A DNA stretch of 34,298 nt from Verrucomicrobiota bacterium (GTDB lineage: Bacteria > Verrucomicrobiota > Kiritimatiellia > SS1-B-03-39 > UBA6053): contig JAFIGC010000048.1 of NCBI GenBank assembly GCA_020831635.1, positions 1-34,298 of the forward strand, given 5' to 3'. The notes beneath the pieces are model-generated. The model made no database searches. It was not told where the DNA came from and saw only the letters and a program-made list of their open reading frames with translations. Below, piece after piece: positions 3,277-28,471 of the stretch (position 1 is the stretch's first letter; each line of letters opens with the position of its first letter). The position numbers were made by a program, and so were the translations under genes.

Positions 3277-3454
3277 AATATGTATTTCCTTGAACTTGAA
3301 ACGTGTTGTCGGTGAATTCCGGCAACTGGGGCGTACTTTACACCTTTGCCCGTCCTGATGAAATGGGGTGAACACCTACCGCGATTTACGCACAAAGTGA
3401 TTGCTTACACGATGGAATCGGTGCAATACTTCAATTGGAAAGCGTACAGGTAAG

Positions 3455-13118: not shown

Positions 13119-16100
13119 TTATTCAAATCCTCCATCGACTTTTAGGGTGACGCCATTTTCGGTAACCGTTCTAATCACGGACTCTCCAAACCCATTTTCG
13201 CAACTGGCGGATATATCCAACGACAGTCGAACATGCGCACCGGGACTGTTTTGAAGGTGTTGAATGAGTTCTTCGGAAATTCGGGCGACTTCACGTGCCA
13301 TGCGTACAGGATCCAGTTTGGCGCTTCCATGGTACTCCACGACCTTGTTTGGGGTTTCCGAAGTCGTGTGCAAGATAAACGGAGAGGGTGAACCTTCAAG
13401 GTTAGGCACATTGGATGTGGCATCCAAAATGTCCGAAACCCCTTTTTGTTCCCTTTCTTTTTGAAATTGCGTTTCCGCAACAGCAGCCCTCACCACGAGG
13501 CCGTTGGACTGAGGGTCCAGCATCCGCATCCCACCCACATGGAGTCCGATATACCTTTCTTCTTTTTCATCGTACCCGTCTGCGTAGGCAAAAGCGTCTT
13601 TGGCCCAGTTGATTTGGGAAATGCCTTCGTTGATGGAATCCAAAAGAACATCGGGGGACATGAGTTTCGGCAGGTAGAGATACTTGGCGTAATCCTCGAC
13701 CAACGTGGAAATCCGCACGTGATCCCCCTCCCTGAACAGCGGAATTTTCTCAAGATGCTCCTTTAGAAGGTGGGAGGTCAGTCTTCGGCAAAGCGAACCC
13801 TCCGCGCCCAAGCGTTGTTGCACCCGTTCAGGAATAGAGGCGCTTCCTTTCAATCGGAATTCATTCCAAATCATTTCCGGCCTTCCTGGAATCTGCTCCG
13901 GTGTCAGCAACCAACAGTAAGCCTCCCGGAGTCGCGCGGAAATCTCGCGTTCCGCCTCTGCAATTCGGCTGTCCACCTGCCCAAGCTGGTTGTCCCCCAA
14001 ATCCAATTCACTTTTTCGGGATTTGATCAGGTTCCAAGCCAAAAACTTGCAGACCGACTCCTCCACATGCTGAATTTGGGCACTGTCGGGGGCCACAAAA
14101 ATCAAGGTGTTTTTGTACTGTCGGGGAGAGGTTCCCCGATTCGCGAGAAAATCCTCCGCCGCCTTACGCGCCGGGGAATTTTCCGTGCTTTTCTGGTGTG
14201 GACAATCCGGACGGAGGCCAATTAACCGCGTCATCAACTCATCCGGAATATCCGAGGAGACATCGGGTACAAACGGGGCGCGGTCGAAGATCTTGGCCAT
14301 GGCGAAATCGCGGTCGAGCCGTTTGCGGATTTCCTCATGCAAAAGGTCGTGCCGTTTTTTCAGCCGTTCACTTTCATCTTCCGCCAAACTGTTCAAACTC
14401 GGGGTGGTGGAATACCAATAACGGTTGATGCCGTCTGTATACAGGTAGGTGGCCTGATTGGTGAGCTTTTTCAATGCATCCGAGAAAATCGCGACCGTTT
14501 CCCCCGGTTGGACCGTGGCCAGTTTCACTCTGGCTTCGTCCACCCCCTTGTTGGCGGCCCGTTCCAGCGGTGCGGTGGCAAGAAACAAAGAACGCCCCAC
14601 CCGCCTGGTGGCGGAGTAACGCCCCAACTGGCTGGCGAATTTGCGGTCCACCTGCACGGGCGTGCTGTCGGGTCCATCCACATCTTTATCAATCACCGCC
14701 ACCCAATTTTCCTCCAGGTAGTTGGCCAAAGCATCCCGAACGCCCACCGCGTTGACGGGCACATGGGCCGGATGGATCATGAGTCCATTGTCCTGATTCT
14801 CCCAGAGATAATGAATCACCGCCGCCATCAGGCGCAACACCCCCCGGGTACGCTGAAAGCGGACGAGACTCCCCCAGGAATTATACAATTCATCAAACAA
14901 TTCAGGATGAATGGGATAGGCGTCCCGCAGGCGTTTTTCGTAGCGCGGATCCAGGGTTTCAGCGGGAAACTCCTGGGCATGGGTGCGATACATGTCCCCA
15001 TACGCCCGGACCACGGCATCCCGGTGTTTGTACATCTCGGCGGGCAAGGTGTTGAAGAGGCGGCGACGCACGATCTCATAACTTTCCTCTTGGGTCGCGG
15101 AACGCCAGGGGCTGTCCTTGCGTCCAACCACATGACGAAGCCGATGCAAGGCCTCCATACCCCGCTGCCCCCCCACCTCCGTCAAATCAGCGTCCTCTTC
15201 GCCCGGCCTGTCCGAAGCCGGCAAACTCACCACCAGCAGACAGTTGTCCACAGTGGAAACCACCTCCGTGAGTTCCTGGGCAAAGGTGAAATGCGTTTCA
15301 AAACTCCCGGCGGGCAAATCCGCCTCTTCGTGCAACTGCCGCGCATACGCCACCCATTCGTCGATGAGGATCAAACATGGCCCATGGTCCACGAAAAGCT
15401 TCCGCAGCGAATCATCCCGGGGCGTCGTACTTGTGCGGTCCGCCTCCGCCACCAACGCATAGCCCCCCGCGCCCCCCAACTGCCAGGCGATTTCACCCCA
15501 AAGCGTGCGTACCTTGGTACCGTCTTCCTTGACCGACGGGTCACCGGGCGAAATCCGATTGCCCACCAACACCACGGGGTTTACCTTTTTGGAAAGTTTG
15601 GAAATGCCCACTTCTTTCAAGACCCCCTCCAGGCCCGGCAACTCATCCAGCCTTTCCGCGCCGCACAAGTGATACAAGGCCAACATGGAATGGGTTTTCC
15701 CGCCCCCGAAATTCGTCTGCAACTGAATGACCGGCTCCCCGCCTTTGCCGCTCAAACGCCGGATCGCGTTGGACAACAAGCGGTGAAGACCCTCGGTAAT
15801 AAAGGTGCGGCGAAAGAACTCAATTCCATTCGCGTATTCCGGGGGGGCGCTTTCAGGATACTGCGAAACCTGCCACAAATCCGCGGCAAAACGGGCCATG
15901 GCCAGTTGACCGCCGGACACATCCTGGTGCGGGGTCACCACTTCCCGCCAAGGCTTCAGGTTCGGCAAGGCGCGTCCTTCCACCGTTACATCCACCGCCT
16001 GACGGACCACCTGCCGGGCCTGCTCGCTGTACACCAGCCGCTGCACTTCCTCGGCCATCGCCTCCAACTCCTTCGCTTCAGGGGCGGAAACCGCGCGACA

Positions 16101-16460
16101 CAGACGCGACATGGTGTCCAGCGCCCGAAAGGTGTCTGCAGAGGAGAAACCGTGGTCATGGGCGAACGCTTTCCGCACTTCCCAAATTTCGCTCACATAA
16201 CTTCGCTCCGCAAAACCCAGCGTGCGGCGGAAGACATCCCCCCAAAATTTGTTCATCACCGCGAGACATGCTTGCGTGTCCCACGTATCCACCTCCGCCT
16301 CGAATTCGTATTGGTGGTCGTGGCCGCCAAAACCACGGCGCACCGCGGTAACCCAATCGGTTTTGTAAATCGTGCGCATCTCGCGTTCGATATAAGGCGC
16401 GAGCGCACTGCGAAGTAAATGCAGGGCTTCGTCAATACGGGTTCGGTTACTTTTTGCCAT
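13119..16460 (-). CDS. Swt1-type HEPN domain fused to DUF499 ATPase (PglY/BrxC-related)
   Basis: This protein has 1113 residues; AAGGAA lies 9 bases before the ATG. Residues 1-120 resemble the Swt1-type HEPN domain and hold R96-K-A-F-A-H101, matching the catalytic R-x4-H of HEPN RNases. The rest is a DUF499 (COG1483) AAA-like ATPase with Walker A T-N-F-G-G-G-K-T-H-S (249-258) and Walker B C-L-I-L-I-D-E-W-V (362-370). DUF499 proteins include PglY/BrxC-class ATPases of BREX and recur in defence islands with DUF1156 methyltransferases. This is the last gene of the eight-gene operon, 65 bases after the dprA-like gene. It may be the ATPase that couples recognition to an RNA- or DNA-directed effector step; this role is inferred, and HEPN domains can also be inactive scaffolds. 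Confidence 0.85.
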   Translation of the reverse strand: MAKSNRTRIDEALHLLRSALAPYIEREMRTIYKTDWVTAVRRGFGGHDHQYEFEAEVDTWDTQACLAVMNKFWGDVFRRTLGFAERSYVSEIWEVRKAFAHDHGFSSADTFRALDTMSRLCRAVSAPEAKELEAMAEEVQRLVYSEQARQVVRQAVDVTVEGRALPNLKPWREVVTPHQDVSGGQLAMARFAADLWQVSQYPESAPPEYANGIEFFRRTFITEGLHRLLSNAIRRLSGKGGEPVIQLQTNFGGGKTHSMLALYHLCGAERLDELPGLEGVLKEVGISKLSKKVNPVVLVGNRISPGDPSVKEDGTKVRTLWGEIAWQLGGAGGYALVAEADRTSTTPRDDSLRKLFVDHGPCLILIDEWVAYARQLHEEADLPAGSFETHFTFAQELTEVVSTVDNCLLVVSLPASDRPGEEDADLTEVGGQRGMEALHRLRHVVGRKDSPWRSATQEESYEIVRRRLFNTLPAEMYKHRDAVVRAYGDMYRTHAQEFPAETLDPRYEKRLRDAYPIHPELFDELYNSWGSLVRFQRTRGVLRLMAAVIHYLWENQDNGLMIHPAHVPVNAVGVRDALANYLEENWVAVIDKDVDGPDSTPVQVDRKFASQLGRYSATRRVGRSLFLATAPLERAANKGVDEARVKLATVQPGETVAIFSDALKKLTNQATYLYTDGINRYWYSTTPSLNSLAEDESERLKKRHDLLHEEIRKRLDRDFAMAKIFDRAPFVPDVSSDIPDELMTRLIGLRPDCPHQKSTENSPARKAAEDFLANRGTSPRQYKNTLIFVAPDSAQIQHVEESVCKFLAWNLIKSRKSELDLGDNQLGQVDSRIAEAEREISARLREAYCWLLTPEQIPGRPEMIWNEFRLKGSASIPERVQQRLGAEGSLCRRLTSHLLKEHLEKIPLFREGDHVRISTLVEDYAKYLYLPKLMSPDVLLDSINEGISQINWAKDAFAYADGYDEKEERYIGLHVGGMRMLDPQSNGLVVRAAVAETQFQKEREQKGVSDILDATSNVPNLEGSPSPFILHTTSETPNKVVEYHGSAKLDPVRMAREVARISEELIQHLQNSPGAHVRLSLDISASCENGFGESVIRTVTENGVTLKVDGGFE

Positions 16461-16525
16461 GGGATGGATTTCCTTGCTTAGGTTGAAATGGGTTTGGTGT
16501 GAAAATGGAAAATGCCCGCCAGATT

Positions 16526-17764
16526 TTATTTTCGGACATATCGGACCGGCTTGTTCAGTTTTTTGATTTTCTGATCGCGTACGGCCTGCTTCAGCCAGAT
16601 TTGAAGTTGTCCCTTGGCGACATCCAGCGTTTTGGTGAGTTCGTCGACCGTGGCCGGTTTCTCCAACGCGTGTTGAAGCACGGGCAAAACAGCCTCGTAG
16701 ATCGGGGACGACTTCTGCTCCAGCTTCTGAGAGGTGCCGTACGTCCCCTTATCCTCCGATAGGGCCTTTTCCCTGACCACCGCGGGTTCGTCGAACAAAG
16801 CGAGTTCCATTTCCTCGGCTTTCTGTTTCGGTTTGCGCTCGAGCGCCTTCCGCAATGAGGTTTCCGGGGATGCTTCAGACATTTCGGGAAACGTAACGGC
16901 ACCCAACTTGATGAGTTGGGGATTGCCCACGGGAACGGAACCCGTCATGCGGACAAACACCGGCCTGCCGGTCTTTCGTTTCAGTTCCTCGGCGGCGCCG
17001 GCCCAGGTTCCCCCTTTTTTGTGATCCGAACTCACCACCAAGCCATAGTCGGCCATGGCGTAGATGAGTTTGTTGCGGGCCATGGCGGTGCCAACGGTGA
17101 ATCTCGCCTCGGGGTGATAGGGCGAAATCAACAGCAAGGTCCCGTCGGAGATGGCTTTCCGCGCCTCGCGGGCCACGCTGTTTTTGAGCAGGTTCTCCGC
17201 CAACACCCCGACCACACACCCGCCCGCGTCCAAGGCCCCTTTCATGGCGATTTGGTCCACCCCGCGTGCGCCCCCGGAGACCACAGGCAGACCGCCCCGG
17301 GCGCACCAGGCCGCAGCCGTTTCAGTGAACCGTTCCGCTTCCTCGTCAATGTTCCGGGAGCCCACGATCGCCATGCCGCCCCCCTTGAGCAGAGATCGTT
17401 CGCCCACCCCGAACAAGATGGGAGGTGCCTGCTCCTTCAAATGATTCCGGTAGCGGGCCGGATAGTCGGGATCGCTCCGGCAAATCACCCAAATATTGCT
17501 GCGATTCCACGTCTCGACCGCGAATCCCAGTTGAACACCCCGTTTGAGAAGGGCCGCCAACCTTGCTTCCGGAAGTTCCGATCCCATGGCGGCGGGCTTT
17601 ACGTTCTCGGGCGAAAGTAAATCCGCCGGACGCAGATTTGCCTGCACAAGCCATCGGACCAGACGATTATACTCCGAAGGTTGCAGGGGCTTTGAATCCG
17701 TTTCTTTCCCCAGCCGTCCGCAGAGCAGGAGAATCGCTTTTGCATCATCGCTCATTTTTTCCAT
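16526..17764 (-). CDS. DprA-like single-strand DNA-binding protein
   Basis: This protein has 412 residues. The ATG at 17764 is set by GAGG (17771-17774) with a 6-base spacer, a site that overlaps the recQ-like stop; a longer frame to 17827 is rejected. The Rossmann-type DprA fold (about 95-290) shows G-S-R (135-137), S-G-G-A-R-G-V-D (163-170), A-R-N-K-L (229-233) and G-G-T-W (251-254). The C-terminus (about 350-412) is a winged helix: V-D-E-L-T-K-T-L-D-V. Classical DprA protects incoming single strands and loads RecA in transformation. Here the gene is embedded in a defence-type operon, directly after a helicase with a phosphoribosyltransferase tail. DprA-like proteins next to phosphoribosyltransferases occur in several phage-defence settings, which argues against a housekeeping competence gene. 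Confidence 0.88.
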   Translation of the reverse strand: MEKMSDDAKAILLLCGRLGKETDSKPLQPSEYNRLVRWLVQANLRPADLLSPENVKPAAMGSELPEARLAALLKRGVQLGFAVETWNRSNIWVICRSDPDYPARYRNHLKEQAPPILFGVGERSLLKGGGMAIVGSRNIDEEAERFTETAAAWCARGGLPVVSGGARGVDQIAMKGALDAGGCVVGVLAENLLKNSVAREARKAISDGTLLLISPYHPEARFTVGTAMARNKLIYAMADYGLVVSSDHKKGGTWAGAAEELKRKTGRPVFVRMTGSVPVGNPQLIKLGAVTFPEMSEASPETSLRKALERKPKQKAEEMELALFDEPAVVREKALSEDKGTYGTSQKLEQKSSPIYEAVLPVLQHALEKPATVDELTKTLDVAKGQLQIWLKQAVRDQKIKKLNKPVRYVRK

Positions 17765-17772
17765 AAAATACC

Positions 17773-19878
17773 TCAATCCATACGTGGGGAGTTTAAGGTT
17801 AAGGCCAGAGGGTGTACCACCGGGCATCCCGCCTGCCGGAGCAACGCCGCCGCCACTGTGAACGTCCAGCCCGAGTCCGTCATATCGTCAACCAGCAGGC
17901 AGGGATCGGACATCAGTTGGTCCACATCCACACCGAAAGCTCCATCCAGGTTGCGCGCCTGCTGAAAACTGTTGTTCATATGCTTTTGCTGTGGATTGTC
18001 CATCGTCTTGGACAAACAAGGTCGGAACGGCAGGCACAGGCATTCCGCCAGACGCCGTGCAAAGTCCGGAACCAGGTCAGGGTGATTCAGAGAGGGAATA
18101 CAGGTCAGCCAAGTTGGGGCCGGATCAGGGGTCCATTCCCGGAGCATTTCCACACAGGCCGTCACCAGCGAATCGTCAAAATGATTTTGCTCGTATTTGC
18201 CCGCCGCCACCATCTGACCCCAACCCGCGTCTCGCCAGAGACAAAGCGCACGGCCCTCCTCCGCGCACAAATCGGCGGTGATGCGCCCCGAAAACTTGTG
18301 GATGGGCAGTGCTCCACCGCTTGGCCATTGTTTGCGTGGCTTCAGTGGTTGGTAGCTGCGTTTCAGGAAAATCGCGGCTTGGTTTGCAAGATCCAAATTG
18401 TATTCAGGTGATAGCAACGGAGCCTCCACACAACCCGCGCAGCGACCACAGGGACTGGCGGCGGGATCATCCAAGGCCCGGGCCAGAAACTCCATCAAAC
18501 AGCCCCGGTGTTCCATGTACTCTGTCATCTGCGCCTGCTCTTGGTGGCGAATGGCGGTAATGGAGTCCACATAGCCCTCGTTAATTCGATACGTTTCCGC
18601 CACGGCGGTCACATTCCATTTTGAACCGATTTTTGTAACCGGCGCCGGGGATTCCACGGAAAGGAATTTCAACGCTTTTTCGATCTGCCCATGGCTTAGG
18701 TTCAGGACCGCCTTCAATTGCGGCACTGACAATCCCCCATCGGTTTGACCGAGCGCTTCCAGAATGGCTTCCACATGTTGCTGCGGCGGAAATGCGTTTC
18801 GGATAAAGTAATCGGTGATGCGTTCGTCCTCCTCCCCGTGCAGGAGAATGCCATAAGCTTCCTCCACCGCACGCCCGGCGCGACCGACCTGCTGGTAATA
18901 GTGTACCACCGACCCCGGACGTTGAAAATGAATGACAAAGCCCAGGTCGGGCTTGTCAAAACCCATGCCCAAGGCCACGGTTGACACCAACACCTTGACT
19001 TCGTTTTGAAGCAGATCCTGCTCCAAAACTTCGCGACGGGGATCTTCGCCCTCAACATCTTTCACGTCCGCATGATAGGCCTCCGCACTTATATCGTTTT
19101 TTTTCAGCCACGCCGAGACCCGTTCCGCGTCCCGAACCGTCAGGGTATAGATGATCCCACTCCCCGGCAATGCGGGAAGCGTTCGGGCCAGCCACGCCAT
19201 GCGAGCCGCCGGACTGGGCAAAACGATATTTTGCAACTTCAGACTTTCCCGCACCAGAGGTCCCCGCACCAACTGAATGCCTTCCCCCAACTGGGAGAGC
19301 ACATCCGCCACCACCCGGTCATTTGCGGTGGCGGTGGTGGCCAAAACGGGAATATTTGACGGAAAGGCCTGCAGTACCCGCACGATGCGCCGATAATCCG
19401 GACGGAAATCGTGACCCCAATCAGAGATGCAGTGGGCCTCGTCCACCACAAAAAGCCCCACCCGATCCGCCACATGCGCCAACACATTCGCCCGAAAGTT
19501 GTCATTCGCCAAGCGTTCGGGCGAGATCAGCAGGATATCAATCTGATCGTTTTGAAGCCGGTCCTCAATCTCATCCCAGTCCTCCGTATTGGTGCTGTTG
19601 ATCGTCTCCGCCCGCACCCCGATCCTCCGGGCCGCCTCGATTTGATTCCGCATCAGGGACAATAATGGAGAGATCAATAACGTAACTCCCGCTCCCTGGT
19701 CGCGAAGCAGACGGGTCGCAAGAAAATAAACCATGCTTTTCCCCCAACCCGTGCGTTGCACCACCAACAAACGACGACGGTTCAGCAGTCCGTCAATCGC
19801 CTCCCACTGTCCATCCCGAAAATCGACATTGGGCTGGTCCAAGGCCTGCCGTAAATAGGTTGTTGCTTGTGCACGCAT
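17773..19878 (-). CDS. RecQ-family helicase with C-terminal phosphoribosyltransferase domain
   Basis: This protein has 701 residues; the ATG lies 5 bases after the methyltransferase stop, with no clear Shine-Dalgarno site, so coupling is likely. The RecQ core has motif 0 (F-R-D-G-Q, 20-24), Walker A Q-R-T-G-W-G-K-S (41-48), DEAH (146-149), the R-x-D-Y aspartate region near 159-162 and motif VI Q-V-G-R-A-G-R (329-335). A zinc-binding set C459, C476, C479, C482 follows. Residues about 510-700 are not RecQ-like and end in a type I phosphoribosyltransferase PRPP loop: L-L-V-D-D-M-T-D-S-G-W-T (661-672), like ComFC. It presumably unwinds DNA 3' to 5'; the PRTase may bind a nucleotide ligand rather than catalyse. 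The fusion beside a DprA-like gene mirrors the competence pair ComFC and DprA. Confidence 0.88.
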   Translation of the reverse strand: MRAQATTYLRQALDQPNVDFRDGQWEAIDGLLNRRRLLVVQRTGWGKSMVYFLATRLLRDQGAGVTLLISPLLSLMRNQIEAARRIGVRAETINSTNTEDWDEIEDRLQNDQIDILLISPERLANDNFRANVLAHVADRVGLFVVDEAHCISDWGHDFRPDYRRIVRVLQAFPSNIPVLATTATANDRVVADVLSQLGEGIQLVRGPLVRESLKLQNIVLPSPAARMAWLARTLPALPGSGIIYTLTVRDAERVSAWLKKNDISAEAYHADVKDVEGEDPRREVLEQDLLQNEVKVLVSTVALGMGFDKPDLGFVIHFQRPGSVVHYYQQVGRAGRAVEEAYGILLHGEEDERITDYFIRNAFPPQQHVEAILEALGQTDGGLSVPQLKAVLNLSHGQIEKALKFLSVESPAPVTKIGSKWNVTAVAETYRINEGYVDSITAIRHQEQAQMTEYMEHRGCLMEFLARALDDPAASPCGRCAGCVEAPLLSPEYNLDLANQAAIFLKRSYQPLKPRKQWPSGGALPIHKFSGRITADLCAEEGRALCLWRDAGWGQMVAAGKYEQNHFDDSLVTACVEMLREWTPDPAPTWLTCIPSLNHPDLVPDFARRLAECLCLPFRPCLSKTMDNPQQKHMNNSFQQARNLDGAFGVDVDQLMSDPCLLVDDMTDSGWTFTVAAALLRQAGCPVVHPLALTLNSPRMD

Positions 19879-19883
19879 CGTGG

Positions 19884-22694
19884 TTAATTGAGATCCAATT
19901 CGGTCTGATTGGAAACGCGGGGCAGATCGTTGAGCTGGTTCACAATCGACGGCCAGGACACCACCAGCGCGTTAAAGGGCAGTGCTTCCGCCGGCCATCG
20001 TTTGCTCTCGCTGATTTGAAACAGCAGATAAGCCAACTCGCGGCAGGCTTCCGCCAGGCCGGCATCCACGTCACGGAGGTCCTTCAAAATCCGGGCCGCG
20101 TCCACTTCCCCGCCCTGTTTCAAGGCACGGGTCAAATGACCGGTGGCCTCCCACAGGCTCAGTCGCTTGTCCGTCGCCGGATTCCAGTTCACGGGAAGTT
20201 CATCCGGTTTCAGCAGCCGCACCTTGCTGGCGGAAGCCTGGAGAATCCCCCCGTCCTGCAAACCTTTCACCGAAACCGCCTGCGCCCGCGCCAAGCCCTC
20301 CGCATCCCCGAAGGGACCCGCCTCGTAGCCGTATTGACGGAACCAGGCCACCGCCCAGCGGGTATCCGAGTCGAATTCCGACTCTTGTTCCTCCAAACAT
20401 TCCGACAGAACCTGATTGATCACCCGCAAGGCCGCCCGAACCGACATTTCCCCGCCCTCGTTTTCCAGAACCCGTCCAAACGAGGAAAACACCGCCATGC
20501 CGGGCCCCAGCGCAGCCTGCGCCAAGTCCACCGGGGCGATGTTCGCCTTTTGCAAAGTCTCCACCGCCGAGGGCAGACGTTGGCGCAGTTCCCGCAGGAA
20601 GTCCCGTCGGCTGGCGGTGGGCGCTTCCGGGGAACGCGGACGACAGGCCAGCACGATGTAGCTGGCCAGGGCGTTGGAACCCATCGCCCGCATCCGCCAC
20701 TGCTGGGATGCCCGCACCGGCACCGTGGCCGTGATTTGAAAGCCGCTGGCGTTCAAGGCCTCCAGCAGCGTTTCCCAGCCCGTGGTCAGATTCACCCGCT
20801 CGTCATCTTCCGCGCCGGCTTGCTCGTCCGACTGCTTGAATGCGTAATACACCGTCAGCGGAAAACGCGGATCCATGCGCGCCCGCAGGTTGGTGAAGGC
20901 CTGGCGAAATCCATTTTCAAAATGTTCCTTGGCCGCCTGCTTGTCACCGTCATGCCGCTCCGCCGCCGCCGTCAGTTCAGGCCCCTTGGGCACCAGCACG
21001 GTGCTGAACACCTCCGGATACAAAGCCGCCAGGTTCTTGCGCAGCCAGACATAGAAAAAATCACTCAGGGCCGCATAGCCGATATTATCGTAATACGGCG
21101 GATCCGTGCTCACCAGCAAAGGCCCCTCCACACTGTTCACCGCCGCCACCGCGTCCTGCTGTTGGGTGCGGGAAACCGCGTCTTTTCGGCGGGTGATGGT
21201 TTGAATACATTTGGTGACATACTCCATGCAGGTTTGATAAGAACCCACGGAAGTCCCCAGCAGATTTCCTTCCGCAAAGTCCCAGACCATGGGAATCGCC
21301 TGACGTCCAAACAAATGCATGGGTTTTTCGTTACTTGCTCCCCATCCGCATAACGAATTATTAAAATCCGCACTACGGTCCACGGCAAAGGCGAGAAAGG
21401 TGGTGACCGCCTTGGCGTATTCCTCCGCCTGCGCCTCCGAAAGTCCGGTATTTTTCGCATCCGCAAGCACCTGCCCCCGATTTTCCGCAATTGCATCACA
21501 CAGAAACCCCATGGTGAAGAGTTGGCGTTTGGTGAATAAATCCCGATATTCGTTCAATCCATATAGCGGGGTGTAAAAGGCCCTTCGATCACTAGAAATT
21601 TCACCATCGGGACTCCAAGTGGGTTGGGCTGAAAAAGCAATGCTTTCGTGTTCTTGGGGGGTGTCAACATAAACTCGCTTCCTGCCACCATCTGCCACAA
21701 CTGCAACCAATTGGAATCCCATCTTCCCGGCGCATCCTTCTTCTTTAATGTAAGATGCGGAAATAGTACTCCCCGATAACAAGCAGGTGAAGTTTGAACC
21801 ACGCCCTTCTTTTGTGCCTGATTTAACCACATCACTATCTTTGGGTGTACCATGTAATATCTTAAAGCGAACTTGGTTTTTTTCGGGTTCTATGTAAGGC
21901 TCAAGGTAAGCAAGTTTCCCCTTCTTTGAGCAGAGCCAGTAGGTTGTAAGCAAGGGCACATGGGTTCCACCCACTGTCGGATCCGGACTGCGGACGGTTC
22001 GAGCCCATATCCAGGCGATGACTTCGGCCTTCTGTCCCCCAAGGTCTTTTGGAAGTTTGACCTTGGGATAGAGCTGTCCGATCTCCTTGATGGCCTTTTT
22101 GCGGATTTGCTCCCCATACCAGGCCACGTCCTTGGCCAATCCGGTCGCACCCTGCCAGGAGCCCTGGATCTGCGCGGCGTCGTCCGGATTCACGGGCGGA
22201 TGATCCAGCCAGCGCGGCACGATCTCCAACTGGGCTTTGTTGATCATCACCGCCACCGGGTTCAGATCGGAAGCCACGGCGGGAAAACCCAGCCGCTGCG
22301 CCTCCAGAGGAATGGAGCCCCCGCCGGAAAAGGGGTCGAGCACGGTGGGGAGTTGACCCTCACAATGTTTGGCCATCTCCGCCCGCGCCTCCTCATAGAC
22401 TTCCGGCTTTTCGTGCAGCCGGGGTTGCATCATGCGGCGAATAATCCCGTGCAAGCGTTCCCGCTCCGCCTCGATAGCCTCCGCCGTCGCTCCGGCAAAG
22501 CGGGGATCCGTTTCCGGATCATTCACCACCGACGCGAACAGCACCGCCCTCGCCGTCGGCAAAGGCAAACGCGCCCACCAGTGATGAATCCCCTTCGGGT
22601 GCGGCCCGATCCCCGGCATTTTGTCATACGCCGAAGCGTCATTGATCACATCCAGCGGCAGGGAGACTTCGATAAGTTTTTTGGGGTGGGTCAT
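19884..22694 (-). CDS. DUF1156-family adenine-specific DNA methyltransferase (COG1743)
   Basis: This 936-residue protein starts at an ATG that overlaps the DUF4276 stop by four bases (ATGA). The DUF1156 signature H-H-W-W-A-R-L-P-L-P-T-A-R-A-V is at 37-51. SAM motif I, L-D-P-F-S-G-G-G-S-I, is at 119-128 with an acidic S-D-L-N-P at 142-146. Catalytic motif IV, D-P-P-Y-Y-D-N, is at 530-536. Both motifs are intact, so an active N6-adenine (or N4-cytosine) methyltransferase is expected. Homologues act as PglX-like enzymes in some BREX types. No separate specificity subunit is encoded, so recognition must lie in this protein, probably between the motifs. The central part (21585-21905) is clearly more AT-rich than the flanks, as if exchanged. 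It is the expected self-marking enzyme of the operon. Confidence 0.9.
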   Translation of the reverse strand: MTHPKKLIEVSLPLDVINDASAYDKMPGIGPHPKGIHHWWARLPLPTARAVLFASVVNDPETDPRFAGATAEAIEAERERLHGIIRRMMQPRLHEKPEVYEEARAEMAKHCEGQLPTVLDPFSGGGSIPLEAQRLGFPAVASDLNPVAVMINKAQLEIVPRWLDHPPVNPDDAAQIQGSWQGATGLAKDVAWYGEQIRKKAIKEIGQLYPKVKLPKDLGGQKAEVIAWIWARTVRSPDPTVGGTHVPLLTTYWLCSKKGKLAYLEPYIEPEKNQVRFKILHGTPKDSDVVKSGTKEGRGSNFTCLLSGSTISASYIKEEGCAGKMGFQLVAVVADGGRKRVYVDTPQEHESIAFSAQPTWSPDGEISSDRRAFYTPLYGLNEYRDLFTKRQLFTMGFLCDAIAENRGQVLADAKNTGLSEAQAEEYAKAVTTFLAFAVDRSADFNNSLCGWGASNEKPMHLFGRQAIPMVWDFAEGNLLGTSVGSYQTCMEYVTKCIQTITRRKDAVSRTQQQDAVAAVNSVEGPLLVSTDPPYYDNIGYAALSDFFYVWLRKNLAALYPEVFSTVLVPKGPELTAAAERHDGDKQAAKEHFENGFRQAFTNLRARMDPRFPLTVYYAFKQSDEQAGAEDDERVNLTTGWETLLEALNASGFQITATVPVRASQQWRMRAMGSNALASYIVLACRPRSPEAPTASRRDFLRELRQRLPSAVETLQKANIAPVDLAQAALGPGMAVFSSFGRVLENEGGEMSVRAALRVINQVLSECLEEQESEFDSDTRWAVAWFRQYGYEAGPFGDAEGLARAQAVSVKGLQDGGILQASASKVRLLKPDELPVNWNPATDKRLSLWEATGHLTRALKQGGEVDAARILKDLRDVDAGLAEACRELAYLLFQISESKRWPAEALPFNALVVSWPSIVNQLNDLPRVSNQTELDLN

Positions 22695-23308
22695 GATGTA
22701 TGGGAAAGTGCGGTTTGGATTTCTTTTCGGAATTTACGAAAGGAGCGGCAGATGCCAGATGATTCCAAATCAAGCAGCCGCGTCAGCTCCGGCTGGTCCA
22801 CTGGTTCGGAATACGTGCTCAGAGGCAAAAGGTTTTGTTTAATCCAGTTTTTACCGGAAAGTTCCTCAGGATGATCCGGGGCGATGAGGCCTTTGCGAAA
22901 CCTCGCATCCGATGACAGGCTGGGCGCGGAAGCCGCGAGCCAGTTTTCGAACATGCGTTTGGCGATTACCACAGACAGGCGAACATCACCTACCAGAGGA
23001 TTCGCATCGTTCCGTATGCGTTGGGCCAGGGTGACGGGGCAGTCTCCCTCGGCATCCAGCAAAACCAGAAGAACGCCCGGCTTGCCCCTGATATTTTTGG
23101 CCGCCAACTGAAGGGAACGTCCGAATTCCCCCTCGGCCTCTCTTTTTAAAAATCGGTCTCGCTTCACTCGAAGAGGAGGGAAACATTGGAGTGGCCTCGT
23201 GCATCCCTCTGCCGCGGCAATTTTCCGTATGAGAATCTCCACGGCCTTTACCTCCCCATGCCCCTCCACCAAAGAGGCAAAACAAATTGGATTCCATGAA
23301 TCAGACAC
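22691..23308 (-). CDS. DUF4276-like TOPRIM-type protein, probable partner of the AAA_21 ATPase
   Basis: The GTG start at 23308 gives 205 residues. It has a strong GGGGAG site (23316-23321) with a 7-base spacer and overlaps the ATPase stop by 8 bases; a longer frame to 23584 lies inside the ATPase gene and is rejected. The N-terminus reads S-L-V-E-G-H-G-E (E15), then L-V-L-L-D-A-E-G-D (D85, D89) and a later F-E-N-W. This is the glutamate then D-x-E-x-D order of TOPRIM-like nucleases. AAA_21 plus small TOPRIM-like protein pairs resemble a split OLD nuclease, as in PARIS, which uses a different TOPRIM family. It is a likely nuclease effector or tRNA/DNA-cutting partner, inferred. Assignment to DUF4276 is by pattern only. 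Confidence 0.72.
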   Translation of the reverse strand: MSDSWNPICFASLVEGHGEVKAVEILIRKIAAAEGCTRPLQCFPPLRVKRDRFLKREAEGEFGRSLQLAAKNIRGKPGVLLVLLDAEGDCPVTLAQRIRNDANPLVGDVRLSVVIAKRMFENWLAASAPSLSSDARFRKGLIAPDHPEELSGKNWIKQNLLPLSTYSEPVDQPELTRLLDLESSGICRSFRKFRKEIQTALSHTS

Positions 23309-24512
23309 CGATAAACTCCCCTTGTAAATCTTTTTCACGGTTTTGCCGAAGATACTCTTCGTCAGGGACGATTTGCTGTAAGCGCAGCAACTCACCGGCG
23401 CTAAAGAGGTTTTCCCGAATGCTGTCACGACCCACGTGAGACATGGGGGCGATTTCCGATCCATGATGACCCTGGCCGACGGCAAGGATCGCCTCTGGAG
23501 AGACCCCTTCCATATCCAGAAAATCAGGGCTGTGAGTTGAGAGCAACACTTGGCGACCCAGCGAAACTTCCTGGAATGCCGCAAGTAAAATACCGGATGC
23601 CGCCGGGTGTAAGGCTAATTCCGGTTCCTCAATGGCGATGAAAGGCACATGAACCTCGAAGGAACCCAAATGTTGAAAACAAGCCACCAACACTGCAAAG
23701 GCCCGGAGAGACCCATCCGACATCTCTGAGCCCCTGAAGCGTACAGGTTGGGGGTTGCCAAGAAATTTTCGTTCGTCGTCCACGATTTGCCAGAAGTCCA
23801 AGGTCTCCATCCGATCCAAATCGACTTTCCTGACATCCACAAGCCCGGAAACAAACCTTTGCAGATAGGTCACAATCCGTTGACGTGTCTCCAGGGACAT
23901 TCCCCCGAAAACTGACGCCACATTGGATCCATTGCTGTTGAGCATCACCTCGGGGCTTGGGGACTGCAAAGACCTAATGGCTTCGGGACCCAGATTGTAA
24001 AAGCCCATGTGCAGCAGCTCATCGTAAAGATAGGTAAACTCGTCAAAGCCTGAAACCAAATTCAGATAAGGGCGATCCTCTGGGACCGGGGGACGAATCA
24101 CGAAAGAGGCCTCCAGAAGTTTTCCATTTTCGATTCGGTAATAAGATTCACGTTTCTTATGATCGTTCACCCAGCAAGCCTCTTTGAGCAGGATCGGCCG
24201 GTTCTTACTGTTTTGGCCCACCGTAAAGCCAAATTTTGCGGACACCCCGTGATCCAATTCCAGGATCATGCTGATGCAGAAACTCGAGATGTCTTCACTG
24301 GATCGGTGTAGAACGGAATTCAATCCTCCCCGCACGCGAAGGGCGTGGTCCAGATTGCTGGAAATGATGTCCCTGACAAAACGCAGTGCATCAATCAGGT
24401 TGCTTTTTCCCGCACCGTTCGGACCCACCAAAATGCTAAGATCCGTGAGTTCGATGCGGACATTTCTCAAGCTTTTGTAACCTGTAACCGATATTTTGGA
24501 GATAAAGGCCAT
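23301..24512 (-). CDS. AAA_21 ABC-type ATPase (RecF/OLD-like)
   Basis: This protein has 403 residues from the ATG at 24512, one base after the XRE gene stop. Features in order: a Y-K-S-L-R-N strand, Walker A G-P-N-G-A-G-K-S (30-37), a long helical and variable middle, an ABC signature M-S-D-G-S-L-R (264-270), Walker B F-I-A-I-E-E-P-E (291-298), L-H-P (301-303) and the H-loop S-T-H-S-P-D (325-330). All ATPase motifs are intact. It lacks the TOPRIM domain that full-length OLD proteins carry at the C-terminus; the following overlapping gene encodes a TOPRIM-like protein, so the two probably form one complex. Hand-counted stretches here range from about 40 to 57% GC, against 55-60% in the flanking methyltransferase, hinting at separate acquisition. 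Confidence 0.88.
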   Translation of the reverse strand: MAFISKISVTGYKSLRNVRIELTDLSILVGPNGAGKSNLIDALRFVRDIISSNLDHALRVRGGLNSVLHRSSEDISSFCISMILELDHGVSAKFGFTVGQNSKNRPILLKEACWVNDHKKRESYYRIENGKLLEASFVIRPPVPEDRPYLNLVSGFDEFTYLYDELLHMGFYNLGPEAIRSLQSPSPEVMLNSNGSNVASVFGGMSLETRQRIVTYLQRFVSGLVDVRKVDLDRMETLDFWQIVDDERKFLGNPQPVRFRGSEMSDGSLRAFAVLVACFQHLGSFEVHVPFIAIEEPELALHPAASGILLAAFQEVSLGRQVLLSTHSPDFLDMEGVSPEAILAVGQGHHGSEIAPMSHVGRDSIRENLFSAGELLRLQQIVPDEEYLRQNREKDLQGEFIGV

Positions 24513-24513
24513 T

Positions 24514-24888
24514 TCAATCGCCCCCCTCGGTTTCCGCCCCAAACCATTGGGAGTCACAACCCTCCGGCTCCAGGTGGCTGCGGTAGGTGCAGCCGAGGGC
24601 GTGGGCGATCTTCACCATGGAATCGAGGGTGAAATTGGTGTTTCCCCGCAGGATCTTGGTGATGTAGGCCGGGCTGCTGTCGATGCGCCGGGCGAGTTCG
24701 GTGCGGTTGACCCCCAGTTTGTCCATGCGGGCCACCATTTGCTCGGTGAATTCGAGCACCGCACCCTCCAGTCGGTAGCTGTGGGTGTTCCGCGCCTCTT
24801 CCATCAGGCCTTGGAATTCGTTTTTTTTGTTCATGGCTTCTTCATTTAACTTCCAGGTTAAAAAGCAAGTGTTTTCCAGCAAAATCAT
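24514..24888 (-). CDS. XRE-family helix-turn-helix regulator inside the operon
   Basis: This protein has 124 residues. The ATG at 24888 overlaps the helicase stop (ATGA) and has a strong GGAGG (24894-24898) 5 bases upstream, which is why this start is chosen over a Met at 24834 (106 residues). The N-terminal half is helical (E-G-A-V-L-E-F-T-E-Q-M). Residues 60-100 are an XRE/Cro fold: R-T-E-L-A-R-R-I-D-S-S-P-A-Y-I-T-K-I-L-R-G, then F-T-L-D-S-M-V-K-I-A-H-A-L-G. It could act as an internal controller, like the C proteins of restriction-modification operons, or as an antitoxin-like partner. The operator is not identified. Translation is expected to be tightly coupled to the helicase. Confidence 0.85.
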   Translation of the reverse strand: MILLENTCFLTWKLNEEAMNKKNEFQGLMEEARNTHSYRLEGAVLEFTEQMVARMDKLGVNRTELARRIDSSPAYITKILRGNTNFTLDSMVKIAHALGCTYRSHLEPEGCDSQWFGAETEGGD

Positions 24889-27800
24889 CCGTTCCTCCCC
24901 TTGGCGAGGAGTTTTTTCATGGAGAGATTCATGGAAGCGGCGGAGAAGGCAATACCGTCTGCGAAGGGCTGGTGCACATAAACCGGGGTCTCGGCGGCGC
25001 CGTTTTCGATGGGAACAATCACCAGCCACCACTGATCGGGTCGGTTGAGCCCGGTGAGGATCTCGTTGCGGGTGAGGGTGACGGTGTCCGCTCCGGCGGC
25101 ACGGGCTTTTACCTCCAAAAAACGCAGTTTTCCGGTGTCGGGGTCGAGGGATTCGATGTCGTATCCGACGTGTTCGGCGGAGACATCGCGGGGGATGAAG
25201 CCCATCTCCAGCTCGGACGCCATTACCGCCTCCATGCCCAGCAACTCCGATGCCTGGTTGTCCCGGCCATACATGGGGGGCTTTTCCCGCACCACGCCGG
25301 GTTCGGCGGTGATTTCCGTAAACCAGCAGGCGGGCACCACCAATGCGCCGCCATGGACCACCGGCGGAGTGGCCATGATGTTCCGCTGGCGGTCCAGCTC
25401 TTCGAGACGCAGGCTGAGCCGTTCGGCGAGATCCTCTGCGCGTTGCTGGGCGTTCTGTGAATTCAGTTTGGAACGACTGTTCCCCGCCTCCTCGCGTTCC
25501 CGCAATTCGATGGCCCGGGCGTCCCAATAGCGGATTTCGGATTCCAAGCGGCGGCGAACCTGCTCGCGGGTTTTTTCGATCAGGGCTTCGCGTCGCTCCC
25601 GAACACCGTCCAAGTGATCCGGCACCAGGTGTTCGATCGCATATTCCACCGCTTTTTCCTCCAGATCGGCGGAGAGCCAGGACTCGTTCAGGAGGGTTTT
25701 GGCGTCCTCAAGTTGTTCGGAGGTTGGGGAGGTATAATCCAGATAGGGGGCATAACCCGCGTCCACCAAGCGTCCATCGGGGTAGAGTTCGACAAATTGA
25801 AGGAGTCTGGAGAGCACGTGGTTGCCCCCCGACGCCGTGTCCGGCCTTCCATCATGGACCGCGCTCTCCAGGAACAGGAGTAGCCGGGGTTGGGACACGG
25901 TATCCGCGGGATCCACGAGGATGGTTCCCTGGCGGAGGGTTTCGCGATGCCGTTCCAAGACCAAGCTGATGGTCGCGTCCAGAAGCGGATGGCCCGGCGC
26001 GATAAGCGCGGCGGGCGGGTGCCCATCGACCCGCACGGCTTCTTTTTCAAAGGTGACCCGTTCCATGGCCTTGGGAAGGGGGGCACGAATGCCCACCACC
26101 CGGTCGCGCCGGCGTATATCCAAGGGAACATGGCGAATCTCGAAGCGTCGGCTCTCCCGTTTGAGCAGCTTGCCGCCGAAGGAGGAAAACGCTTCTTCAA
26201 AAAAGCTCCCGATATAGTGGGGTTGCAATTTACGGGCTTCCGCCCGCTGCATGCGCTCGCAAAGGCTTTGGATGCGCGCCTGGTCGAATTGCTCGGGGGA
26301 GATGGCCCGTTCATCCACCAAACGGCGGAGCTTGGAATGGTCCAGATTCTCATCAATGACCTGGTTCAGCCAAACTTCGGTTTCATCGCTCTCATTGAAT
26401 CGAATCGCCTTGAGCAGCAGATCTTTGAGGGGCGTGTCTTTGAAGGCTTCGCCCAGCACGTCGAAGACGGCATCCCCGAGCGCTTCGCGTTCCGCCTCGA
26501 TTTTTTGCAACAGACGGAGATACACGTCGCCCTCGCGGGTTTCTCCGGCCACAAGATTCCACAGATGACAGGTCTCCCGCTGACCAATACGGTGGATCCG
26601 GCCAAAACGTTGCTCCAGGCGGTTCGGATTCCAAGGTAAATCGTAATTCACCATCAGGTGGGCCCGTTGAAGGTTGATGCCTTCTCCGGCGGCGTCGGTG
26701 GCGAGCAGAATCAGGCATTCCGGGTCATTCGAGAACATTTCCTGGATGGCGCGACGCTGTTCGCGGGTTACTTGTCCATGAATCACCTGGATGGCGTCCG
26801 CGCTGGGAACCATGGCCAGAAGTTTTTTGCGCAGATAGTTGAGGGTGTCGCGGTGCTCCGTGAAGATGATCAGCTTGCGTTGCCGTCCGTGTGCGTCTTT
26901 CATCTTGTCGTTTTTATGAAGGGCGTCGGCCAGTTTGATCCACTTGCTGTCCGTGCCTGCATTTTTGACCGCCGCCGCCTGTTTTTCGAGACTTTTGAGG
27001 GTGGCGATCTCTTTTTCCAGTTCGCCGATGGTTACCGATGCGGTGGCAAGGTCGAGAATCCGCTCCTCCATCTCCTCGAATTCATGGCCGGGCAGATCCT
27101 CAATGTCCTCCACCGCTTCCTCGTCCAGATCCGGTGCGCCGGTCAATTGAATCTTCCGGAGTTCCGCGCCCCTTTTGAGGATTTTCTCCTCGCGGACCCG
27201 CTTTTCCAGCCGTTCGCGGCGGCGGCGAAGGGATTGGTAAATGGCTTCGGGGGAAGAGGCCAAACGCCGTTGCAGAATGGTGAGCGCAAATCCAACCGTG
27301 CCTTTTCTGCCGCTCTCCATGTTGTCGGCCCGGTTGAACTCCTCGCGAACATACTCCGTGACCGCCCGGTAGAGTTTCGCTTCCTGGTCCGAGAGCGTGT
27401 ACTCCAGCGTGTAGGCGTAGCGGGGCGGAAAAAGGGGCTTGCCTTCCATGGTGACCAACTGCTCTTTGACCATGCGCCGCATCAGGTCGGAGGCATCCAC
27501 GCTGTGCACGCCGTCCCGCATGCGGCCCTCGAACCGGTCTCCGTCCAACAGGGATAGAAAAAGCTGAAAATCCTCGTCTTTGCCATTGTGTGGGGTCGCG
27601 GTGAGCAACAGAAATTGTCGGGTGTGCCGGGAAAGCAACTGTCCAAGCCGAAAACGTTTGGTGCGTTTGATTTCGCCCCCGAAATAGGTGGCGGCCATTT
27701 TGTGGGCCTCGTCCACAATCACCAAATCCCAGTCAACCTGTTTGACCTTCTCCTGCAACTCCTCATCCCGACTCAGTTTATCGAGCCGCACGAGGCAAAA

Positions 27801-28400
27801 ATTATGCTCCAAAAACCAATTGCCGGTACGGGAGGATTCCTGTCCCTCTTTGGTGAGGATATCAAAGGGCAGATTGAACTTCTGGTCGAGTTCATCCTGC
27901 CACTGTTCGACGATGGACCCGGGCGCGACGATCAGGCACTTGGAAATATCGCCCCGGATGACCAGTTCTTTCACCAGCAAACCCGTCATGATGGTTTTGC
28001 CGGCTCCCGGGTCGTCGGCCAACAGAAAGCGGAGAGGTTGCCGGGTAAGCATGGTGTCGTATACCGCCGTCACCTGGTGTGGAAGGGGTGTGACGGAAGA
28101 GGTGTTCACCGCCACCATGGGATCAAATAAATGCGCCCAGCGAATACGCTGGGCCTCTGCGGCAAGTCGAAATGCATTCGCATCCGCCGAAAGTGAAAGC
28201 GTGCGGGATCGACATTCCACATTCAGTCGGTGCTCGTCCGATCGATACAACAGCATGCTGCCCGTTTTCCCCCGGGCATCCACAAAAGTCACGTTGACCG
28301 CTTGGGACCCGATCATTTTGGCGTGTTGAATGGATACGGTTTCACCGGGAATCATCCCGCTGACCGAGGCACCCACAATAATGTCTTCCAGCTTAGGCAT
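24885..28400 (-). CDS. SNF2/HepA-type helicase with C-terminal DUF3883 nuclease-like domain
   Basis: This 1171-residue protein is the first gene of the eight-gene operon. The SF2 core shows H-Q (108-109), Walker A D-D-P-G-A-G-K-T (129-136), D-E-A-H (230-233), L-L-T-A-T-P (265-270) and, in the second lobe, T-D-A-A-G-E-G-I-N-L followed by Q-R-F-G-R-I-H-R-I-G-Q. A long insertion with coiled-coil character separates the lobes (about 375-480). The C-terminus has a DUF3883 domain: G-Y-D-I with D1081, then L-E-V-K-A-R (E1096, K1098), a D-x14-E-V-K pattern like Mrr/PD-(D/E)xK folds. COG0553 helicases of this layout accompany DUF1156 methyltransferases and DUF499 ATPases in defence islands. Probable role: translocation on, and possibly cleavage of, unmodified DNA (inferred). 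Confidence 0.9.
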   Translation of the reverse strand: MPKLEDIIVGASVSGMIPGETVSIQHAKMIGSQAVNVTFVDARGKTGSMLLYRSDEHRLNVECRSRTLSLSADANAFRLAAEAQRIRWAHLFDPMVAVNTSSVTPLPHQVTAVYDTMLTRQPLRFLLADDPGAGKTIMTGLLVKELVIRGDISKCLIVAPGSIVEQWQDELDQKFNLPFDILTKEGQESSRTGNWFLEHNFCLVRLDKLSRDEELQEKVKQVDWDLVIVDEAHKMAATYFGGEIKRTKRFRLGQLLSRHTRQFLLLTATPHNGKDEDFQLFLSLLDGDRFEGRMRDGVHSVDASDLMRRMVKEQLVTMEGKPLFPPRYAYTLEYTLSDQEAKLYRAVTEYVREEFNRADNMESGRKGTVGFALTILQRRLASSPEAIYQSLRRRRERLEKRVREEKILKRGAELRKIQLTGAPDLDEEAVEDIEDLPGHEFEEMEERILDLATASVTIGELEKEIATLKSLEKQAAAVKNAGTDSKWIKLADALHKNDKMKDAHGRQRKLIIFTEHRDTLNYLRKKLLAMVPSADAIQVIHGQVTREQRRAIQEMFSNDPECLILLATDAAGEGINLQRAHLMVNYDLPWNPNRLEQRFGRIHRIGQRETCHLWNLVAGETREGDVYLRLLQKIEAEREALGDAVFDVLGEAFKDTPLKDLLLKAIRFNESDETEVWLNQVIDENLDHSKLRRLVDERAISPEQFDQARIQSLCERMQRAEARKLQPHYIGSFFEEAFSSFGGKLLKRESRRFEIRHVPLDIRRRDRVVGIRAPLPKAMERVTFEKEAVRVDGHPPAALIAPGHPLLDATISLVLERHRETLRQGTILVDPADTVSQPRLLLFLESAVHDGRPDTASGGNHVLSRLLQFVELYPDGRLVDAGYAPYLDYTSPTSEQLEDAKTLLNESWLSADLEEKAVEYAIEHLVPDHLDGVRERREALIEKTREQVRRRLESEIRYWDARAIELREREEAGNSRSKLNSQNAQQRAEDLAERLSLRLEELDRQRNIMATPPVVHGGALVVPACWFTEITAEPGVVREKPPMYGRDNQASELLGMEAVMASELEMGFIPRDVSAEHVGYDIESLDPDTGKLRFLEVKARAAGADTVTLTRNEILTGLNRPDQWWLVIVPIENGAAETPVYVHQPFADGIAFSAASMNLSMKKLLAKGRNG

Positions 28401-28406
28401 GAAAAC

Positions 28407-28435
28407 TTTATATCACATCATTCTCTTGTCGACAA
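28407..28435 (-). promoter_or_regulatory. Promoter of the eight-gene defence-type operon
   Basis: On the minus strand TTGTCG (28430-28435) is spaced 17 bases from TATAAA (28407-28412). The -10 box ends 6 bases before the ATG at 28400, so the transcript is predicted to be almost leaderless. The palindrome TTGTCGACAA covers the -35 box. Confidence 0.6.
28426..28435. promoter_or_regulatory. Palindrome over the -35 box, candidate LysR operator
   Basis: TTGTCGACAA is a perfect 10-base palindrome inside the 69-base divergent gap between the helicase and lysR genes. It overlaps the operon -35 element, so binding there would block RNA polymerase. It is short, so chance cannot be excluded. Confidence 0.4.
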
Positions 28436-28455
28436 TGCTTGTGAATGCATGTAAC

Positions 28456-28471
28456 ATGACTTTATAGTCAT
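28456..28471. promoter_or_regulatory. Inverted repeat over the LysR gene start
   Basis: ATGACT-TTAT-AGTCAT is a perfect inverted repeat that covers a -10-like TATAGT (28463-28468) and the LysR gene start codon. A second short repeat, CATGT-A-ACATG, lies directly upstream (28449-28459). Together they suit negative autoregulation, which is common for LysR-type regulators. Confidence 0.45.

Follow-up and report, generated by a model that had tools for sequence, protein, structure and literature searches.

The window analyzed here is the entire contig JAFIGC010000048.1 (34,298 nucleotides) from the 6.0-Mb, 96.5% complete genome of a Verrucomicrobiota bacterium, and its central feature is a row of eight genes on the minus strand at positions 13119-28400 (15,282 bases). 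Read 5' to 3' along this strand, the order is hmaA, an XRE-family gene, HEC-01A, HEC-01B, hmaB, psyrT, psyrA, and hmaC (Table 1), with the protein identities taken from Pfam and PADLOC profile scans of the window proteins. The genes are tightly packed: hmaA overlaps the XRE gene by 4 bases, a single base separates the latter from HEC-01A, HEC-01A and HEC-01B overlap by 8 bases (GTG start at 23308), HEC-01B and hmaB overlap by 4, and gaps of 5, 8, and 65 bases follow for hmaB/psyrT, psyrT/psyrA (ATG at 17764), and psyrA/hmaC, where the gene starts are our own choice among the alternatives listed for each open frame. An initial annotation, made from the DNA letters, had described an eight-gene, one-strand operon at this position. 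Its order, strand, and overlaps or gaps of at most 65 bases are all confirmed, and its domain calls hold in Pfam for SNF2 with DUF3883 (NOV_C), XRE (HTH_3), AAA_21, DUF4276, DUF1156, a RecQ-type helicase, DprA, and HEPN with DUF499. Given seven PADLOC matches of such strength in succession, chance is no serious alternative.

Table 1. Features of the window, operon genes first, in operon order (aa, amino acids; bits, profile scores).
Feature	Positions	Strand	Description	Profile match or remark
hmaA	24885-28400	-	SNF2/DEAD helicase, 1171 aa, C-terminal NOV_C/DUF3883 nuclease-like domain	PDLC00659 HmaA 1548 bits, residues 1-1169
XRE gene	24514-24888	-	XRE-family regulator, 124 aa	HTH_3 41.1 bits; PDC-M64B-like 35.6 bits
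HEC-01A	23301-24512	-	AAA_21/OLD-type ABC ATPase, 403 aa	PDLC04178 HEC-01A 383 bits
HEC-01B	22691-23308	-	DUF4276 protein, putative TOPRIM-like partner, 205 aa, GTG start	PDLC04196 HEC-01B 169 bits
hmaB	19884-22694	-	DUF1156 DNA amino-methyltransferase, 936 aa	PDLC00660 HmaB 1021 bits, nearly full length
psyrT (rqlH-like)	17773-19878	-	Presumed toxin, 701 aa; RecQ helicase ending in a phosphoribosyltransferase-like region	PDLC03928 PsyrT 976 bits
psyrA (rqlI-like)	16526-17764	-	DprA-family protein, 412 aa, presumed antitoxin	PDLC03927 PsyrA 438 bits
hmaC	13119-16460	-	HEPN_Swt1-DUF499 AAA+ ATPase, 1113 aa	PDLC00662 HmaC 942 bits, residues 167-1109
hmaA/LysR intergenic region	28401-28469	-		Holds 4 of the 5 promoter-like matches; total not above shuffles
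LysR gene	28470-29378	+	LysR-type regulator, 69 bases from hmaA and transcribed divergently	
Split HipA	66-1363	-	HipA_C protein (66-1040) and HipA N-terminal domain protein (1040-1363)	
BON protein	1744-3375	-	Contains six stretches of BON domain	292 bits
Glycine-rich frame	32593-34230	-	Open frame of 545 aa, very rich in glycine, at contig end	

All eight genes are presumably co-transcribed. In a scan of the region, neither terminator-like sites (16 observed versus 20.3 expected) nor promoter-like sites (5 versus 6.6) rise above shuffled sequences, and the region between hmaA and the LysR gene is, on weak evidence, the probable promoter region of the operon. Rfam gives no match within the window.

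Three of the genes form what classifies by profile and domain matches as an Hma core (HmaA-HmaB-HmaC), also named Type-1 bacteriophage exclusion (BREX)-related (BR). HmaA joins SNF2/Helicase_C domains to the C-terminal NOV_C domain (64.8 bits in Pfam), for which nuclease activity is predicted and whose residues D1081, E1096, and K1098 are identical in all 56 other rows of the alignment. No Tudor family is found among the HmaA Pfam matches, an N-terminal Tudor domain being a Type-1 BR trait, and residues 1-75 were not folded. The DUF1156 domain of HmaB scores 65.5 bits in Pfam against a cut-off of 24, and its DPPY motif at residues 531-534 is the same in 79 of 79 other rows. For HmaC, Pfam reports both HEPN_Swt1 (113.1 bits) and DUF499 (113.5 bits), the PADLOC profile PDLC00662 having no HEPN part, and the ATPase motifs GGGKT and DE are present in all 63 other rows. 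The NCBIfam models DUF1156_antiphage (103 bits, cut-off 1000) and DUF499_antiphage (166 bits, cut-off 1200) score far below their cut-offs, which may reflect a different BR type. The host genome returned no second full-length HmaB in a search with HmaB, and phage records gave no HmaB at E values up to 1e-20. A second full-length DUF499 ATPase is encoded elsewhere in the host genome (locus L026, G000:C124, positions 2236-5301; PADLOC DUF499, 1722 bits), with some 2 kb between it and the end of a contig.

The first intergenic slot, between hmaA and hmaB, holds the XRE gene and the HEC-01A/HEC-01B pair. Homologues of the XRE gene also lie between hmaA and hmaB in loci L021 and L059. The DUF4276 domain of HEC-01B is matched in Pfam with 40.7 bits (cut-off 30.2), and its alignment finds no match among PDB sequences up to an E value of 1. 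The AlphaFold2 model, built on a five-row alignment, has a predicted local distance difference test (pLDDT) score of 78.8. With VIA-align, the C-terminal regions of OLD proteins are the best matches of this model (Z scores 8.9, 8.7, and 8.7 over 167, 157, and 160 residues), with unrelated folds at 8.2 and 8.0, and in plain Foldseek other folds rank first. Our best guess from the model is that HEC-01A/B form a split OLD-like nuclease. The pair is found in the other slot in L058, and in L128 (G042:C208) it lies in another modification-type setting, in the order SNF2 helicase, HEC-01A, HEC-01B, type III methyltransferase.

The second slot, between hmaB and hmaC, holds a pair that its domain and profile matches identify as PsyrTA (RqlHI). 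PsyrT has the Pfam domains DEAD/Helicase_C, and its DEAH motif (residues 146-149) and an acidic phosphoribosyl pyrophosphate (PRPP)-type motif (D664, D665, D668, S669, T672) are invariant in 14 rows. The AlphaFold2 model of PsyrT (pLDDT 84.6) matches a RecQ core with a Z score of 38.1. PsyrA carries a DNA_processg_A domain (126.9 bits in Pfam). The two proteins are 53% and 39% identical, respectively, to the Escherichia coli pair of L137. Strong PsyrA matches (E value of at most 1e-90) occur in 17 of 387 sampled genomes of the host phylum, the host included, and in all 16 other genomes psyrT adjoins psyrA; most weaker PsyrA matches in the phylum look like ordinary DprA by score. Thirteen plasmid records contain PsyrT, and 4 of the 11 contexts read (records H40 and H43 were left out) also contain PsyrA. 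PsyrT-like RecQ proteins with no PsyrA match are found in actinobacterial and haloarchaeal loci (L138, L141-L146), which agrees with rqlH occurring without rqlI in the consulted part of PMC4670107.

PADLOC thus bears out the two nested modules proposed by the initial annotation, HEC-01 in slot 1 and PsyrTA in slot 2. Its further claim, that the eight genes are one undescribed system, is not supported, since PADLOC assigns the core to Hma, the AAA_21/DUF4276 pair to HEC-01, and the RecQ-phosphoribosyltransferase (PRTase)/DprA pair to PsyrTA/RqlHI.

We compared the slots with a census of HmaB loci (L040-L119) collected by searching genomes with the HmaB alignment. From 569 confirmed loci the census takes the 80 best, which represent nearer relatives rather than all Hma. 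Slots were called via tblastn with the window proteins and counted as filled when the gap exceeded 350 bases, a threshold set by us; cargo frames were called mechanically (at least 90 amino acids, same strand), and some are possibly not genes. HmaA was not found in 17 of the 80 loci and HmaC not in 13, and in one locus (L091) HmaA is on the opposite strand; most of the missing neighbors fall near contig ends. Where they share the strand of HmaB, HmaA is always upstream and HmaC always downstream. By this threshold the slot between hmaA and hmaB is filled in 48 of the 62 loci where it could be measured, and that between hmaB and hmaC in 15 of 67. Both gaps can be measured in 56 loci, the other 24 being omitted because a neighbor was not found or lies on the opposite strand: 12 have both slots filled, 31 the first only, none the second only, and 13 neither. 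The window, with both of its slots filled, thus follows an established pattern. Slot 1 may fill first, as the absence of loci with slot 2 alone filled weakly suggests (Fisher p 0.049). The cargo, 85 open frames in slot 1 and 33 in slot 2, belongs to many families, including AAA_21 and AAA_15 ATPases, Schlafen-type, NYN, nucleotidyltransferase, HepT-like, and HNH proteins, and the host's relatives L020, L021, and L022 carry different cargo.

The exact gene set of the window did not turn up in any of the 80 other HmaB loci, both gaps being measurable in 56 of them, and the recurrence of the full eight-gene order, which the initial annotation had named as support for one system, is not seen there. 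It had also named genes that rarely travel together as speaking against one system. This is found in part: PsyrTA lies between core genes in none of the 80 loci (one PsyrT-like fragment, in L065, is downstream of hmaC), and 13 of the 21 PsyrTA pairs described below were not seen in a modification-based operon. The distance between hmaB and hmaC is 13 to 73 bases in 8 of the first ten census loci listed, so that PsyrTA looks inserted between these two genes. The window PsyrT is 75% identical to PsyrT of L035, a contig of 8.6 kb that shows no modification operon, whereas the window HmaB is at most 57% identical to any census HmaB (60% in L020, where the comparison covers part of the gene). Together with the close spacing of hmaB and hmaC in most loci, these identities indicate that the parts of the operon have separate histories.

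The surroundings of PsyrTA were followed in a set of 21 pairs, in which the search for host operons used the Hma genes, one BREX set, one type I restriction-modification (R-M) set, and scans of a few neighbors, and other hosts may be missed; some contigs are short (L034, 14.7 kb; L035, 8.6 kb; L133, 13.1 kb; L134, 4.2 kb; L135, 6.7 kb). Eight of the 21 pairs are enclosed by the core genes of a modification-based operon, one Hma, three BREX, and four type I R-M, with further genes in some of the intervals. The pair is placed between hmaB and hmaC in the window, between brxC and pglX in L027 and L036, between pglX and pglZ together with a DUF262 gene in L140, and between hsdM/hsdS and hsdR in L028, L032, L039, and L137. 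With PADLOC, BrxB and BrxC are confirmed in both L027 and L036, PglX in L036 as well, HsdR in both L028 and L032, and the type I methyltransferase in L028, and the record annotation confirms the hosts in L137 and L140; PglX of L027, HsdM of L032, and both host genes of L039 are identified by tblastn. In L133, type III R-M-like genes flank PsyrTA on both sides on the opposite strand, and this pair was not counted as nested. A ninth nested pair, in L031 (G190:C72), lies inside a resistance-nodulation-division (RND) efflux operon on one strand, in the order HlyD_D23, ACR_tran, psyrT, psyrA, OEP. We therefore rejected the idea that modification systems are the sole hosts of nested PsyrTA. Around the other 12 pairs no host operon was seen, some of their contigs being short.

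In a PsyrT tree of 23 rows, the window protein belongs to a nine-member group with branch support, whose other members are two BREX-nested rows and six further ones that include L031. Scoring rows as nested in a modification operon requires 7 changes on this tree, at least 6 of them forced by supported branches, and these rows cluster no more than shuffled labels do (mean 6.7). On this phylogeny, PsyrTA appears to have moved into or out of host operons many times. The E. coli PsyrTA allele (at least 99%) is found in 53 of 5,426 genomes, with hsdM-hsdS every time; five of these contexts were read, one having an insertion sequence before hsdR, and the allele looks like one spreading island, which we counted once. 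The literature that we searched, preprints excluded and sources in part, contains no description of PsyrTA in Hma or of PsyrTA recurring in several kinds of host operon. The repeated nesting of PsyrTA in different operons is a modest new pattern.

We consider it likely that the operon is an Hma restriction operon with two independently acquired defense modules, one per intergenic slot, in which Hma would restrict unmethylated DNA and HEC-01 and PsyrTA would serve as separate back-up effectors on one transcript. This reading builds on the identities of the parts, their order, the conserved catalytic motifs, the slot pattern elsewhere, and the separate module histories as observed; from these we infer the biochemical steps, and an additive action of the modules rather than that of one machine. 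HmaB would methylate host DNA at some site, and the AAA+ protein HmaC would assemble with HmaA on incoming unmethylated DNA, which HmaA would translocate along and then cut via its PD-(D/E)XK-like domain, with the HEPN domain of HmaC as a putative last-resort RNase. HEC-01A/B would act as a two-protein OLD-like nuclease composed of an ABC ATPase and a TOPRIM-like subunit, and PsyrA would restrain the genotoxic PsyrT until infection disturbs the pair. The single transcript would keep the modules co-expressed, and the XRE protein may tune it.

Several observations weigh against this interpretation. The HEPN domain of HmaC has R-K at residues 96-97, the K replacing an N that is present in 56 of 63 other rows, and the R and the H are retained. 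Fold searches with the PsyrT model return helicase cores only, which neither supports nor excludes a PRTase fold for residues 500-701. Six of the 80 HmaB loci show no HmaA despite at least 9 kb of upstream sequence, and in three of these (L057, L068, and L084) HmaC is also not found within at least 9 kb downstream; HmaB-like genes apparently also occur outside Hma, and the three loci possibly hold lone DUF1156 methyltransferases or diverged partners. Finally, in the Holophagae locus L059, the XRE gene, HEC-01A, and HEC-01B fill the first slot as they do in the window, which also fits a closer partnership with Hma.

The presence of PsyrTA in such an operon can be explained in other ways. It is possible, if not what we would choose, that the modules are passively co-located, long operons taking up any compatible module with no selection on the combination. 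The very mixed cargo of both slots, the interleaving of nested and other PsyrT proteins on the tree, and the PsyrTA pair within the RND efflux operon would all be expected in this case, while the repeated same-strand insertion between intact core genes, in several kinds of host operon, suggests a gain from shared expression. Somewhat unlikely, in our view, is that PsyrTA is kept in slot 2 as an addiction module, in which loss of the operon would free the toxin and the pair would serve to prevent deletion of the costly Hma locus instead of acting against phages. RqlHI acts like a toxin-antitoxin system in the part of PMC4670107 consulted, other slot-2 cargo is toxin-antitoxin-like (NTP_transf_2 in 5 and HepT-like in 2 of the 33 proteins), and the nesting in L031 fits addiction better than phage guarding. 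However, the consulted text of PMC9122126 reports defense against T7 and lambda by a DprA-PRTase pair, and the 12 pairs seen without a host operon have nothing there to stabilize.

We regard it as unlikely that PsyrTA is a roaming guard carried in host operons that are mainly modification-based (Hma, BREX, and type I R-M), where PsyrT, through shared expression, would be triggered once the host system is disturbed by phage anti-restriction proteins or by damaged DNA, and would kill the cell as a second line of defense. The efflux operon of L031 makes this less likely, as it argues against a tie to modification systems alone, and it favors addiction and passive carriage as live rivals. If PsyrTA were such a guard, the window would be a three-layer version combining restriction, an OLD-type nuclease, and genotoxic suicide. 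Least probable, and to our mind very doubtful, is the view of the initial annotation that all eight genes are one integrated machine with HEC-01 and PsyrTA sensing or executing Hma steps, which would suit the tight, overlapping spacing and the recurrence of the XRE/HEC-01 set in L059 but not the lack of the exact set in the census, the loci with neither slot or only the first filled, the PsyrTA pairs inside BREX, type I R-M, and efflux operons and elsewhere, or the HEC-01A/B pair of L128. Returning to an Hma operon with two acquired modules, the same RecQ-DprA pair in Hma, BREX, and type I R-M raises the question of whether nested PsyrTA answers the failure of its host system or just rides along.

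Outside the operon, the window encodes the divergent LysR-type regulator, the split HipA, the BON-domain protein, and the glycine-rich frame. The LysR gene was considered as a general Hma regulator and rejected, as tblastn (E values up to 1e-5) matches it nowhere in the searched loci numbered L020 and above, 43 of them census loci whose sequence extends 1.5 kb or more beyond hmaA on its upstream side; it may regulate the window operon only. The split HipA genes we take to resemble HipBST-type modules.

Among known systems, canonical BREX is rejected, since PglZ (PF08665) has no match in the 96.5% complete genome, and PglZ, BrxC, PglX, and BrxL of Acinetobacter give no tblastn match in the window; the locus is modification-based and BREX-related yet not BREX, as the initial annotation had it. 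Class 1 of the defense island system associated with restriction-modification (DISARM) was likewise rejected: within the operon, only HmaA resembles DrmD (422 bits) and DrmA (225 bits), against 1548 bits for HmaA itself, and the listed matches include neither DrmMI nor DrmB. The name Hma goes back to Payne et al. in 2021, with 1,638 instances in 26 phyla (PMC8565338, in part), and a 2026 paper (PMC12839542, in part) renames it Type-1 BR, a DUF499-centered, R-M-like module of an N6-methyltransferase, a DUF499 ATPase, and a helicase-nuclease. In that paper, 1,370 of 2,446 taxa carry an HEPN RNase as a fusion to the ATPase, and the helicase has a C-terminal PD-(D/E)XK-type domain in 79% of Type-1 taxa. 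The window shares the three core genes, their order A-B-C on one strand, the HEPN-DUF499 fusion, and the nuclease-like helicase C-terminus, and it differs in having four defense genes and an XRE gene between the core genes. HEC stands for Hma-embedded candidate, a PADLOC name (PMC12988326, in part), and defense genes nested inside Hma have been published in a 2024 preprint by Payne et al., as cited by others. The AAA_21 ATPase and DUF4276 protein inside Hma agree with HEC-01, the difference being that an XRE gene precedes the pair, as in L059.

RqlH is described as genotoxic through its PRTase domain, with RqlI binding and restraining it (Russell and Mulvey, PMC4670107, in part), and the link between PsyrTA and RqlHI is drawn in the consulted part of PMC9122126, as syrTA and rqlHI with DprA antitoxins. 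In the window pair, too, a gene for a RecQ helicase with a PRTase-like end precedes a DprA-like gene, and the helicase protein retains the acidic PRPP-type motif. Unlike the two-gene rqlHI operon of E. coli F11 in PMC4670107, it is lodged between hmaB and hmaC. Similar nesting is reported for DarTG2 in the type I R-M operon of enteropathogenic E. coli (PMC12255303, in part) and for TgvAB in type I R-M of Vibrio cholerae (PMC11411939, in part), which are likewise second defense modules within a host operon, with other host systems and other cargo. A parallel for slot 2 is provided by Acinetobacter BREX loci, where recQ and dprA vary between pglX and pglZ (compare L140); these too are RecQ-DprA genes inside a modification-based operon, in a BREX host, and the consulted part of PMC10117892 does not use the name PsyrTA for them. 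An apparent eight-gene system thus resolves into a stack of three named ones, which cautions against naming composites as new, and what the locus adds is a further instance of an arrangement already published, not a new system.

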